From contig JAISNR010000175.1 in assembly GCA_031276135.1 (NCBI GenBank), forward strand, positions 1 to 36,224: a stretch of 36,224 nucleotides of DNA, given 5' to 3'. The notes under the pieces were generated by a model. That model was not told where the DNA came from. It did no database searches and worked only from the letters and a program-made list of their open reading frames with translations. The DNA comes from Eubacteriales Family XIII. Incertae Sedis bacterium (GTDB taxonomy: Bacteria; Bacillota; Clostridia; Peptostreptococcales; Anaerovoracaceae). Both the position numbers and the translations under genes were made by a program. This document shows, in pieces, positions 5,223-36,224 of the stretch (the stretch's first letter is position 1; the number at the start of each line of letters is the position of its first letter).

Positions 5223-8200
5223 TTATTCCGCCCTCCTCTCGCGCCGCGCCGCGTCGCCGATCGCCTTTTCAAAGGCGTACATCGCGCGGTCCTCCCCCTG
5301 CAGCTTTCGGCCCTTGGCCTCCTCCATCGCGCGCAGTATGCGCCGATAGCCCTCCGGGATGATCTTCAGGAAGGACTTGGCCGACGCGCTGAAGTCGTCG
5401 AGCACGGCCTTCGCCCGCGCGCTGCCCGTGTGCGCGAAATGCGCTTCGAGCAAACCCTTGAGCTCCTTCCGGTCGCCGGCGTCGAGGGCGTCGATGTGCA
5501 GGCCCTCGCGGTTGCAGTTTTGGAGAAACGCGGATTCGGCATCCAGGACATAGGCGACGCCGCCCGACATGCCGGCGGCGAAGTTGCGTCCGGTCCTGCC
5601 GAGGATCACGACCTTCCCGCCGGTCATGTACTCGCAGCCGTGGTCGCCCACGCCCTCCACGACGGCGGTCGCACCGCTGTTCCGCACGCAGAAGCGTTCG
5701 CCGGCCAGTCCGCGTATGTAGGCTTCGCCCGCGGTCGCACCGTAGAGCGCCACATTGCCGATGATGATGTTCTCGCCGGGATCGAAGGACGCGTCCGCGG
5801 GCGGGATCACGATGAGCCTGCCGCCGGACAGCCCCTTGCCCACGTGATCGTTCGATTCGCCGCAGAGCGTGAGCTCCACGCCCCGCGCGAGAAAAGCGCC
5901 GAAGCTCTGTCCGGCGGAGCCGTCGAAGCGCAGGCGTATCGTGGCGTCGGGCAGCCCTTCCGCGCCGTGCAAGCGCACGATTTCGCTCGAAAGCATGCAG
6001 CCGATCGTCCGGTTCCGGTTGTTTACGGGCAGCTCGTAGCGCACATCGCTCTTCCGCTCCACGGCGGAACGGCAGAGGGAGAGCAGCGTGTTTTGGTCCA
6101 CGGTGCGCCGCAGCGCGTGGTCCTGCGGCTGCGTGAACCGGCGCGGCGCGCCGTCCGCGACCGCCGGCCTGTGGAGAAGGCGCGACAGATCGATCGTCTT
6201 GGCCTTGTCGTTGATGTCGTTCGGGTTTCGCTGCAGGAGCTCGACGCGGCCGACGAGGTCCTCGAATCGGCGAACGCCCATGCGCGCCATCCACTCGCGC
6301 ACCTCCCGGGCCAGAAAGCGCATCAGGTTTTCGATGTACTCCGGTTTCCCCGCGAAGCGCTTGCAGAGCTCCGGGTTCTGGGTCGCGATGCCGACGGGGC
6401 AGGTGTCGAGATTGCAGACGCGCATCATGTCGCAGCCGAGCACGACGAGCGGCGCGGTCGCGAATGCGAATTCCTCCGCGCCGAGCAGCGCCGCTATGAC
6501 GATGTCGCGGCCCGTCAGGAGCTTTCCGTCCGTTTCGAGCACGACGCGGCCGCGCAGGTTGTTCATGAGCAGGCTCTGGTGCGCCTCCGCGACGCCGAGC
6601 TCCCACGGCAGTCCCGCGTGGCGGATGCTCGTGCGCGGCGCGGCGCCCGTTCCGCCGTCGTAGCCGCTGATGACGATGACGTCCGCGAGCCCCTTTGCGA
6701 CGCCCACCGCCACCGTTCCGACGCCCGCCTCGGACACGAGCTTGACGCTGATGCGCGCGTCGCGGTTCGCGCTCTTCAGGTCGCGGATCAGCTGGGCCAA
6801 ATCTTCTATCGAGTAGATGTCGTGGTGCGGCGGCGGCGAGATCAGGCCGACGCCGGGCGTGGAACGGCGGGATTTCGCGATCCAAGGGTACACCTTGTTG
6901 CCGGGCAGATGCCCGCCCTCGCCGGGCTTCGCGCCCTGCGCCATCTTGATCTGAATTTCCGCGGCGTTGTTCAGGTAATGGATGTCCACGCCGAAGCGTC
7001 CCGACGCCACCTGCTTGATCGCGCTCGAACGGTTCTCGCCGCCTTCGTCCGGGATGAAGCGTTCGGGAATCTCGCCGCCCTCGCCCGTGTTGCTGCGGCC
7101 GCCGAGGCGGTTCATGGCGACGGCCATGCATTCGTGCGCCTCGCGGCTGATCGAGCCGTAGGACATCGCACCTGTCTTGAAGCGTTTGATGATGTCCTCC
7201 GCAGGTTCCACGGCGTCGATGGGGATCGGCTTCTCCGCGGTCACGATGCGCAGGAGGCCGCGGAGGTTCTTGAGCTCCCGCGCGCGCATGTTGACGCAGG
7301 AGGAAAAGGTCTTGAACATCTCGTAGTTTCCCGTGCGGCAGGACTGCTGCAGGTAGAAGATGTTCTCCGGGTTGAACAGGTGGTATTCGCCGTCCTTGCG
7401 CCATTTGTAATCGCCGCCGGGATCGAGGGGTTCGCGCATGGTGACGGGGTCGAAGGCGCGGGCGTGCCGCAGGGCGCATTCCGCCTCGATCTCGCGCAGC
7501 GTGACGCCGCCGATGCGCGTGATGGCGCCCGTGAAATACTTGTCCACGACCGCCTCGCTCACGCCGAGGGCCTCGAAGATCTGCGCGCCGTGGTAGCTGC
7601 GCACAGTCGATATACCCATTTTTGACATTATTTTAACAATTGTATCGGTCATCGTTTGGCGGTAGTTTGCCTTTGCCGTTTCCGCGCAGACGAGAAGCCG
7701 CCCTTCCTCCGCCATCCGATCCAGCGAGTCATAGGCCAGCCAAGGGCAGACGGCGTCCGCGCCGAAGCCGACCAAGAGCGCGAGGTGATGCGCTTCTCTG
7801 GCTTCGCCGGTATCGACGATCAGGCTGATGCGCGTGCGGTTTCCCTTGCGGATGAGATGATGGTGCAGGCCGGAGGCGGCCAAAAGCGCGGGCATCGGGG
7901 GTTTGTACGCGGACGCGCCCCTGTCCGATAGGATGATGATGTTGTAGCCGCCGCTCATGGCCGCATCGACGGCGAGGAAGAGATCGTCGAGGGCCCGCGC
8001 GAGTCCGTCTTTCGCGCGCGCGTTGAACAGGATGGGCAGCGTCACGCTCGCGAAGCCGCGCCGGTTCACGCCGCGCAGCTTTGCGAGCTCCGCTTCCGTG
8101 AGCACGGGCGTCGAATGGCGGATCATGCGGCAGTTTTCGCTCCTCGGTTCGAGCAGGTTGCCCTCGCTGCCCAGCTGGATGTCGGAGGACGTGACGAGAT

Positions 8201-9977
8201 GCTCGCGTATCGCGTCGATGGGCGGGTTCGTCACCTGCGCGAAGAGCTGTTTGAAGTAGTTGCAGAGGAGCTGCGGCCTGTTTGACAGCACGGCCAAAGG
8301 CGCGTCCGTTCCCATCGAGGAAATCGGATCCTCCGCGGTGTCGGCGATGGTTTTGAGCGTGAGGTTCAGGTCCTCCCACGTGTAGCCGAAGATCTTCTGC
8401 ACGGTCAGCAGCGGCAATTTCTTCGCGCCGGCCCCCTTGTCCGCCATCAGCAGATCGAGGCCCGCGAGGTTCTTCAAAAGCGCCTGTTCGTAGGGTGCCC
8501 CGGCGCCGCCGCGCTTTCTGGCGCGGATCACATCCTGCCACGTCGCGCCCTGCTTCCTCCCGGCGGGCAGCCTGTCGAGTTCCGTCAGGTTCCGGTCGAG
8601 CCAGCGGCGGTACGGCTTGGCCGACGCCACCTTGCCCTTCAGCTCGTCGTCCTCTATGATCCGCTTCCGCACCGTGTCTATGAGCAGCATGCGCCCCGGA
8701 TGCAGTCTGTCCTTCTTGACGATCTCGGAGGGCGCTATGGGCAGGACCCCGGCCTCGCTCGACAGGATGAGCAGGCCGTCCTTCGTCAGGCAGTAGCGCG
8801 CCGGCCGCAGTCCGTTGCGGTCGAGCGTGGCGCCCGCGACCCGGCCGTCCGTGAACGCGATGGCGGCGGGGCCGTCCCAGGGTTCGAGCAGACAGTTGAC
8901 ATATTCATAGAAGGCTTTTCGCTGCGGATCCATGTCGTCGCGGTTCTGCCACGGTTCGGGGATCGTCATCATCATGGCCTCGGGCAGGCTGCGCCCCGCG
9001 TGCACGAGCAGGGACAGAAAATCGTCGAGCATGGCGGAATCGCTGCCGTCCTCGTTTATGACGGGCATGACCTTTTGCAGGTCGTCGCCGAACACCTTGG
9101 ATTCCAGCATGGCCTCGCGGGCCTTGACCCAGTTCACGTTGCCGCGGATCGTGTTGATCTCGCCGTTGTGGATAAGCATGCGCATGGGATGCGCGCGCTC
9201 CCAGCTCGGAAAGGTGTTCGTGGAGAAGCGGGAATGCACGAGGGCTATGGCCGAAGCCACGCCGGTGTCGCGAAGATCGGGATAGAAAGCGGACATTTGG
9301 CTCGGCAGGAGCATGCCCTTGTACACGATGGTCCTGCACGAGATGCTGGCGAGGTAGAAATACAGATCCGGCTCTGTCCGCGCGCGGCGGATTTCCGCGT
9401 GCGCGCGCTTCGAAACGATGTAGAGGGCGCGTTCGAAATCGTCCTCCGAGGCGCCGTCCGGCCGCGCGATGAAGATCTGCCGTATGCCGGGGCGCACCTC
9501 GCCCGCGGTCTTGCCGACGCAGTCCGCGTAGACGGGCACGGCGCGCGTCCCGAGCACGCGCAGACCCTCCCGGCCGGCCACGCCGCAAAAGGCCGCCACC
9601 GTCCTGTCGCAGCGTTCCCGCTCCGGCGAGGCGAACATCATAGCTATGCCGTATTCGCCCGCGTCCGGCAGCGCGACGCCCTCTCCGGCCATGACGCGCT
9701 TCATGAATTCGTGCGGGATCTGAAGCAGGATCCCTGCGCCGTCGCCGGTTTCGGGTTCGCTGCCGACGCCGCCCCTGTGCGTCAGATTCTTGAGGACCTC
9801 GATCGCGTCCTCCACCAGTCTGTGAGATTTTTTGCCTTGCACGTTTACGAGCATTCCTATGCCGCAAGCGTCGTGCTCAAAGCGCGGATCGTACAGGCCG
9901 CGCCTTTGCGGCAATCCCGGAAAGCCCGTGCTTCGCTGTCGGGCGGGAAGTTCCCGCCCCTGCCCCGGATTTTCCAT
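5223..9977 (-). CDS. gltB: Glutamate synthase large subunit
   Basis: [17 protein letters not shown] (Ntn amidotransferase start), [43 protein letters not shown], C-terminal GXGXG domain. SD aaggag before the ATG at 9977. Confidence 0.95.
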   Translation of the reverse strand: [1584 protein letters not shown]

Positions 9978-10013
9978 ACTGATTTCTCCTTCATGACAGG
10001 GATATTTCAAGAA

Positions 10014-10042
10014 ATGGTACAATAAATCGCCGGGCTTGTCAA
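10014..10042 (-). promoter_or_regulatory. Sigma70-type promoter for gltBD
   Basis: On the minus strand: TTGACA (10042-10037), 17-bp spacer, TACCAT (10019-10014). Confidence 0.6.
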
Positions 10043-10081
10043 GGGGGTTTTCGGGTTTTTGGCAAAATAATTAGAAAATTT

Positions 10082-10202
10082 TGATAATTGTTACTGCTCA
10101 CCCCCCCCGCGCCATTTTTGCCGGCGCGCGGCCGGGCGCCGGCAAAACTGACGCAGCGTGTGAGCAGTTTTGATTTAAGTGGCTGAGCAGCAACTGATAA
10201 TT
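10082..10202. mobile_element. MITE-like palindromic element (10090-10194) with 8-bp target-site duplication TGATAATT
   Basis: TIRs GTTACTGCTCACCC / (rc) GTTGCTGCTCAGCC, 12/14 identical. Perfect flanking direct repeats TGATAATT at 10082-10089 and 10195-10202. Internal 12-bp perfect stem TTTTGCCGGCGC / GCGCCGGCAAAA (10116-10127 / 10136-10147). Confidence 0.8.
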
Positions 10203-10417
10203 TGCTCGTTTTGCTCGTTTTGTATGAATAAGGCAAGCGTGTTGTCCGGAACGGATATCCATGACGTGAAAAAACCGGAACCCGGGGGCCCGCCGTTTCG
10301 TCAGATATGTGAATCGCGTGTGACGCGCGGCCTTGTGCGGCGTTTCGCCGGCGGGCCCCGTTTCGTTCAAGTTTCTTCGCTTCGGTCCGGGTCAAAACAC
10401 AGGAAAGGGGTTCCGGC

Positions 10418-11449
10418 ATGAAAAAGCATATGTTAAAAGCGATCTTCCTCTTGCCCGCGGCATTGCTGTGCACCGCGCTGCTGTTCACGGCCTGCGGCGC
10501 GGGCGGCGCGAGCCGCAACGCCGTGGATTACGCGGTATCGTCCGACGTCGGGGCCGCCGAAGCGTTTCCCGAAGAGGAGGCGAGCATGGACGCGTCCGAA
10601 TACGGCTATGCCGCCCGGGAATGGGACGAAGGCGTCCTCGCGGGCGATGCCGGAGGCACGGGTCTGCCCGTGCGGCAAGGCGGCGTTTCGCTGTCGGAAA
10701 AGATCATCTATTCCGCAGAGGCCCGCATCGAAACGATCGAATTCGACGCGGCGATCGAGAAGGTCTACGATCTGCTCGAATTCTACGGCGCTTTCATCGA
10801 GAATTCCTATATCGAAGGCAGCGGCGACCGCTCCGCGAGCTTCACGCTCCGCGTTCCCCGTGAGAATTTCACCGAGATGACGGACAGCCTTCCGCAGCTC
10901 GGCAATCTGCTCTCCGTCAGCAGCAACGCGGTGAACATCCAAACGCAGTACACCGATGCGGAATCGCGCCTCGCCGCCTACCGCACGGAGGAAGAGCGGC
11001 TTCTTGCCATGCTGTCCGAGGTGAAGGACGTGGAGAGCATGATCGCCGTCGAAAGCCGCCTGTCGGACGTCCGCTATGAGCTGGAATCCCTGACCTCGCG
11101 GCTGCGGGACTGGGACAACCAAATCAACTACAGTTCTTTGAGCCTGTACATCGATGAAGTGAAGCAGCTGCGCACGCAGTTGCAGCCGAGCGCCGGCTAC
11201 GCGCAGGAGCTCAAAGACGGCTTCGTCGCCACATTGCGCGGCATCGGCGTGTTTTTCATGGAGATTTTCAAATTCGCGGTCATCGCCCTGCCGGCGATCC
11301 TCCTTCTGGCCATCGCCGCGCTCATCGTTCTCTTCATCGTGAAACGAACGCGCGCGCGGCGCGCGAAGCGCACAGACACGGAGGGGGCGAACCTGCGCGG
11401 CACGGATGGGCACGGCGCGGACGGGCCGGGCGGACGCGGGACGGAGTGA
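10418..11449 (+). CDS. DUF4349-type membrane lipoprotein
   Basis: Lipobox LLFTACG; central region (IETIEFDAAIEKVYDLLEFYGAFIENSYIEGSGDRSASFTLRVPRENF) and coiled coil typical of DUF4349; C-terminal TM helix. Confidence 0.8.
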   Translation: MKKHMLKAIFLLPAALLCTALLFTACGAGGASRNAVDYAVSSDVGAAEAFPEEEASMDASEYGYAAREWDEGVLAGDAGGTGLPVRQGGVSLSEKIIYSAEARIETIEFDAAIEKVYDLLEFYGAFIENSYIEGSGDRSASFTLRVPRENFTEMTDSLPQLGNLLSVSSNAVNIQTQYTDAESRLAAYRTEEERLLAMLSEVKDVESMIAVESRLSDVRYELESLTSRLRDWDNQINYSSLSLYIDEVKQLRTQLQPSAGYAQELKDGFVATLRGIGVFFMEIFKFAVIALPAILLLAIAALIVLFIVKRTRARRAKRTDTEGANLRGTDGHGADGPGGRGTE

Positions 11450-36080: not shown

Positions 36081-36224
36081 GTTACTACTCACCAACTCAA
36101 ATCAGAACTACTCAAACGCCGCGTCAGTTTTGTTCAGATCGGGTTCTGCCGACCCATTTGGCTCCCGGAGCGTACACAGACGTACGTGAGGAAGCCAATA
36201 TGGGGCGGCAGGTTCCGAGATGGG
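36081..36224. repeat. Second, inverted and diverged copy of the MITE-like family, truncated by the window end; long foldback structure
   Basis: 36081-36132 is 43/52 identical to the reverse complement of 10143-10194, starting with the same TIR (GTTACTACTCACC). Then an imperfect foldback centred near GTACACAGACGTAC (36172-36185). Confidence 0.75.

Follow-up and report, generated by a model that had tools for sequence, protein, structure and literature searches.

A core-deleted palindromic element upstream of gltB and its probable MITE family with 8-bp target-site duplications in Clostridia

The element between gltB and the DUF4349 gene

The window, meaning the whole stretch of 36,224 nucleotides analysed here, is contig C93 of a gut-type Clostridia draft genome (2.62 Mb, 243 contigs) assigned to an Eubacteriales Family XIII bacterium. 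A gene for the glutamate synthase large subunit, gltB, and a divergently oriented DUF4349 gene enclose an intergenic region with a 105-bp palindromic element, bounded on both sides by a perfect 8-bp duplication (target-site duplication, TSD). The features are as follows.

5223..10022, minus strand: gltB, glutamate synthase large subunit (PF00310/PF01645/PF04898/PF01493), likely ATG start at 9977
10014..10042, minus strand: gltB promoter match TTGACA-17-TACCAT, 39 bp from the left TSD of the element
10059..10088, plus strand: divergent promoter TTGGCA-18-GATAAT, predicted from a consensus match only and directed into the element
10082..10089: left TSD TGATAATT, containing GATAAT (10083-10088), the predicted -10 of the plus-strand promoter
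10090..10194, plus strand: 105-bp probable MITE, a member without its core, with the orientation taken from the left end CACC..CCATTTTTGCC
10090..10103, plus strand: left terminal inverted repeat (TIR) GTTACTGCTCACCC
10116..10147: inner 12-bp perfect stem remaining after core loss, from comparison with loci L006 and L004
10158..10175, plus strand: subterminal repeat GTGTGAGCAGTTTTGATT, which full-length members conserve in their right end
10181..10194, minus strand: right TIR GTTGCTGCTCAGCC
10195..10202: right TSD TGATAATT
10418..11449, plus strand: DUF4349 gene (PF14257), divergent from gltB
36081..36224, minus strand: second family member, core present, truncated by the contig end (model R1, 126.5 bits, E 7.7e-33)

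The initial annotation had described the element and its flanking 8-bp repeats, and the sequence and coordinates it gave are exact to the base. Its setting between gltB and the DUF4349 gene was likewise confirmed, both genes being supported by Pfam. The element lies 39 bp from the gltB -35, where TTGACA (10042-10037) belongs to a promoter match of 10/12 positions. The terminal 14-mers GTTACTGCTCACCC and GTTGCTGCTCAGCC, annotated as 14-bp TIRs, agree at 12 of 14 positions, and comparison with other copies refines the family terminal repeat to about 11-13 bp (GTTACTRCTCA..). The perfect 12-bp inner stem is present as described, formed by TTTTGCCGGCGC (10116-10127) and GCGCCGGCAAAA (10136-10147). 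Folded as single-stranded DNA, this copy reaches -31.1 kcal/mol versus -19.0 +/- 2.6 for shuffled sequences (z -4.6), and none of the 200 shuffles equalled it.

Two further structured sequences were observed in the window, namely a G+C-rich inverted repeat GGGGGCCCGCCG...CGGCGGGCCCCG at 10280-10360 in the leader of the DUF4349 gene, and a complete raiA RNA (RF03072, 128.8 bits) at 16-179 on the plus strand.

A dispersed family with fixed target duplications

Other genomic copies, on which the initial annotation had made its MITE reading depend, are numerous in the same genome and in related ones. Exact GTTACTRCTCA ends occur 27 times in the draft genome versus 2 for a reversed-pattern control, and 45, 29 and 105 times in the relatives G003, G004 and G010, where the reversed controls gave 0-2. 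At least a dozen other clear relatives of the window element were recognised in its own genome, and a 174-bp family consensus matches 14 of 199 genomes of the bacterial family, in 10 of its 92 genera. In G010, many contig ends fall inside element copies.

The flanks of these copies carry a duplication of fixed length. Identical 8-mers stand at both flanks in 23 of 132 end-pairs, where shuffling flanks among copies predicts 0.3, and at least 7 of 8 positions agree in 34 of the 132 versus 0.7 from shuffled flanks. Identity over 5, 6, 7, 9 or 10 bp is found in only 0-1 of the 132. The majority of the end-pairs have no recognisable TSD, a point against the MITE account; part of these consist of ends that are nested, decayed or paired by chance. 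In base composition the TSDs lean towards A+T (0.63 versus 0.48 immediately outside). The recurrence of related copies with their own 8-bp duplications through the genome is far beyond chance. A fixed-length target duplication is a hallmark of DDE transposases, and the constant 8 bp therefore points to an enzyme of this type as the presumptive agent.

Full-length members measure 172-203 bp and hold a long imperfect hairpin between a left arm (..CCATTTTTGCC) and a right arm (..AAAACTGACGC..). In the 202-bp subfamily (L006) the sequence runs TTTTTGCC-[97 bp]-GGCGCGCGGCCGGGCGC, and in the window copy TTTTTGCC is fused directly to GGCGCGCGGCC with the junction at TGCC (10119-10122), as a deletion of 97 bp between TGCC repeats would leave it (202 - 97 = 105). 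By this comparison the window copy is a deletion derivative of the 202-bp subfamily that has lost the core, and it scores 42.9 bits against model R1 with 21 nt replacing 91 model positions. A second core-less copy (L004) has an identical junction, so that either the core-less form moved by itself or slippage at TGCC produced it on two occasions.

Perfect TSDs also flank two more short forms, of 104-107 bp, whose interiors differ (L073, L012). Wholly unrelated interiors between family ends were also found, with perfect 8-bp TSDs in L073 (3497-3705), L069 (827-1008) and L238 (75 bp) and with a TSD of 7/8 in the 46-bp element of L232; elements of this kind, common in ends and duplication, span 46-209 bp. 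Since such core-less or unrelated-interior elements keep the same ends and TSDs, the ends alone would be enough for transposition. GTTAC...TCA ends around unrelated interiors, some with a TCATTCCGGG palindrome, were noted in L068, L069, L073 (3497-3705), L056 and L238, the TSD being 7/8 in L056 and absent in L068. All these elements are apparently served by one transposase.

The family as a whole comprises short (46-290 bp), dispersed, multi-copy elements with TIRs and a fixed-length TSD, in which no conserved ORF was seen. The 105-bp palindrome is very probably a non-autonomous DNA transposon (MITE), the best explanation of the data as a whole, because GTTACTRCTCA... TIRs, an exact 8-bp duplication and the lack of coding capacity recur in many dispersed relatives; the annotation of the element as MITE-like is thereby borne out. 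A DDE transposase recognising the GTTACTRCTCA ends would have moved it in trans, cutting the target with an 8-bp stagger, and the core would be a structural passenger with an ERIC-like tip.

Comparable elements are known. Correia/NEMIS, RUP, EFAR and other bacterial MITEs share TIRs, a fixed TSD, intergenic location, high copy number, hairpin formation and the lack of a transposase. Their ends are different, with Correia and RUP targeting TA, and unlike other bacterial MITEs the present family conserves its interior by compensatory change across genera.

Folded core, mobiliser and the gltB target

The core was examined in an alignment of 42 copies from several genera (A1). Two-sided compensatory change was found in 20 of the 35 pairs of the hairpin, with 143 double-change cells versus 41 +/- 4 in shuffles, and 96.6% of the cells are paired, while sliding the partner leaves no more than 44%; relatedness among copies raises such counts, yet the slid controls retain it and collapse. 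Hardly any variation is seen in the internal loops GGAACC/GAACC and TCAC/GCTCC or in one wobble pair.

Such strong covariation, together with internal loops that do not vary and the U-G pair conserved at columns 59/89, would suit a core that the MITE carries but that is selected as RNA, either a structured non-coding RNA gene or a riboswitch. This account is nevertheless unlikely. One-sided (G-U) changes number 6 versus 143 two-sided ones, leaving G-U pairs almost unused, unlike in typical RNA families, which suggests that the pairing is maintained in DNA, or through template correction, and remains compatible with RNA. Full-length copies also show no bias in gene orientation, as among 53 scored copies, with ORFs called by a crude length rule, 12 lie in the same, 17 in opposite, 12 in convergent and 12 in divergent arrangement; on this count the idea that the family as a whole acts as terminator or regulator was rejected. 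No element copy reached the gathering score in Rfam, and a relaxed E-value gave only weak eukaryotic miRNA-like hits, none of them credible. The likeliest level of selection on the MITE core would be the folded single strand, either as cruciform or ssDNA or as a transcript, recognised by a conserved protein.

A hairpin with invariant mismatches is also typical of the substrates of HUH enzymes, and some copies in other genera (L084, L094) keep the core without clear terminal repeats. Both observations would fit a REP-type element moved by a HUH tyrosine transposase (RAYT/TnpA-REP) that recognises the hairpin, rather than a DDE/TIR element. We regard this as very improbable, as HUH transposition leaves no fixed-length target duplication, whereas 23 exact 8-bp duplications were observed and core-less copies carry TSDs too. 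The GTAG/CGTC tag of the REP superfamilies is also missing (PMC3733652). REP/BIME sequences of the GTAG and CGTC superfamilies are intergenic palindromes found across phyla (PMC3733652), and they differ from the present family in being 20-40 bp long, GTAG/CGTC-tagged and RAYT-linked; membership among them was ruled out by the 8-bp TSD and the TIR of about 11 bp.

For the MITE, a transposase or full-length insertion sequence (IS) with the family ends was sought and not found in these draft genomes, in which MAGs often break at these repeats; the full-length IS with the same TIRs and 8-bp TSD envisaged by the initial annotation is thus far unsupported. A parental IS is not strictly needed for an element to count as a MITE. 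Around single ends in the fetched loci, inspection by eye for transposase genes met only further short elements or ordinary genes. IS66-family MITEs are among the closest known systems, since IS66 also yields 8-bp TSDs. IS66 was rejected as the parent, as PF03050 is absent from the MITE-carrying genomes among those listed and the IS66 ends in this bacterial family are GTAAGCGTCAAA. IS256/Mutator was rejected as well, Transposase_mut exceeding the cut-off in 0 of 14 carriers. The best lead to a longer element is a repeat in G190, where three contig ends (L236, L240, L244) share an identical 118 bp starting GTTACTACTCAAGGGTATGCCG. The interior of this repeat is not in the bin; the shared 118 bp are probably the end of a longer repeated element, perhaps the parent IS. 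Viral, plasmid and phage collections yielded neither core nor full element. Six viral contigs carry the 16-mer GTTACTGCTCAAGGGT, which is probably a chance match since it has no partner end and in two of the six an ORF runs straight through it.

The gltB target was compared among related loci. The gltB promoter block is conserved in L271, L272 and L277. In the congener G001 (L272) the promoter reads AATTATCA-AAATTTTCTAATTATTTTG, with a single AATTATCA (= TGATAATT) and no element; the window has this block after the element, with AATTATCA doubled. The window's own bin contains another gltB homologue (L277, contig C144), which has AATTATCG at the target place and no element there. Of the empty-site allele foreseen by the initial annotation, the single-copy, element-free target thus exists in G001, but it can be aligned on the gltB side only, the upstream genes differing between the genomes; the upstream neighbour in G001 begins, by eye, like rpoB. 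The G001 target agrees with an empty site without proving one.

In G002 (L271, contig C54) a full-length copy occupies the same gltB target in the opposite orientation. This counts against the MITE account in one respect, as a single inherited insertion cannot give that orientation without inversion; the arrangement would reflect either two insertions into one 8-bp site or an inversion.

At L277 (G000:C144:8514-8840), the second homologue of the gltB N-terminus shows 88% amino acid identity, and a remnant of the right end of the element lies directly before its ribosome-binding site. This locus is either a paralogue or a contaminating relative. An A+T-rich block upstream of gltB, at about 10050-10089 of the window (reverse complement AATTATCRAAATTTTCTAATTATTTT), is conserved at four loci despite the differing neighbour gene, and is possibly a regulator site. 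Effects of the element on gltB or the DUF4349 gene, as suggested by the initial annotation, would be hypothetical. The gltB core promoter appears intact, and we infer that the element replaces sequence formerly upstream of this block. On the other side, a transcript from the predicted plus-strand promoter (TTGGCA-18-GATAAT), whose -10 falls in the left TSD, would begin inside the element and have the hairpin of the element as part of the DUF4349 leader.

Least credible of all is that the palindrome originated as a hairpin regulating gltB or the DUF4349 gene locally, as attenuator or terminator, and resembles a transposon by accident: its strong fold, its place 39 bp upstream of the gltB -35 and the predicted promoter reading into it fit such a role, yet dozens of copies at unrelated loci, each with its own 8-bp duplication, the element-free gltB promoter of the congener and the unbiased orientation of the 53 scored copies refute it as the origin, and judged from the sequence context the inserted MITE may have been co-opted at the gltB site.

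The apical tip and ERIC

The core tip of full-length members reads TCAC-GTAC-loop-GTAC-GCTCC and is deleted in the window copy itself. In a scan of genome contigs with this tip pattern, the matches listed are mostly from Clostridiales Family XIII MAGs, the others among them being from Pantoea, Raoultella, Curvibacter, Burkholderiales, Alphaproteobacteria, Silvanigrellales and a Nitrospirae MAG. By rough estimate a few chance matches are expected at that collection size, so that single matches weigh little and multiplicity weighs more. The matches outside Clostridia mostly lie within a larger palindrome, sometimes in tandem. With a looser pattern, in genomes selected for already having one match, 87 sites versus 0 reversed were counted in the Nitrospirae MAG, 19 versus 1 in Pantoea agglomerans and 4-7 versus 0 in three Alphaproteobacteria. 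In this Nitrospirae genome, RIFCSPHIGHO2_01_FULL_66_17 (G223; L265, L125), the 87 copies have the form TCACNNAC..GTNNGCTCC and lie within 1.4 Mb.

ERIC (IRU/RU-1, about 127 bp), which was not retrieved by the tip pattern, was chosen as a test case. Like the present family, it is a short, intergenic, palindromic MITE-like repeat, and as in the full-length members the stem at the tip of its apical hairpin is preceded by TCAC and followed by GCTCC. The ERIC primers (PMC10117815) and the copy between cusC and cusF (L259) give CAG-TCAC-TTAC-TTAT-GTAA-GCTCC-TG, and this tip folds with the same kind of internal loop as the Clostridia tips. The best match of model R1 in the 844-bp stretch with this copy falls exactly on the tip, with a score of only 6.3 bits (E 0.18). 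Beyond the tip there is no similarity. Reviews treat ERIC as a repeat of enterobacteria and Vibrio that has TA-type ends and lacks a proven mobiliser (PMC2229807, PMC10969869); its termini are TA-type with a 7-bp TIR (PMC2229807), whereas the Clostridia family has GTTACTRCTCA ends and an 8-bp TSD, and the hosts differ accordingly, Enterobacteria and Vibrio against Clostridia. Identity of the window family with ERIC was ruled out by the tip-only score and the differing termini, and the likeness appears to be that of a small motif, short of demonstrated homology.

Tentatively, and with somewhat less than even confidence, ERIC could belong, as one branch, to a class of mobile hairpins that spans several phyla. 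In this class a module of TCAC, a 4-5 bp stem, loop, stem and GCTCC would sit in palindromic repeats with quite different ends (Clostridia, Gamma-, Alpha- and Betaproteobacteria, Silvanigrellales, Nitrospirae), and a conserved protein of the host or of transposition would recognise it. If this were true, the Clostridia family would show one route by which the tip module spreads, as cargo of an 8-bp-TSD transposon. To our knowledge, the mechanism by which ERIC-like repeats move has been open since 1991. Since the present family combines clean ends and an exact 8-bp duplication with a large number of copies, its mobiliser can be sought through those ends, and a tip common to unrelated repeats in several phyla would make the job of the ERIC fold a concrete question, namely which protein or nuclease recognises TCAC/GCTCC.
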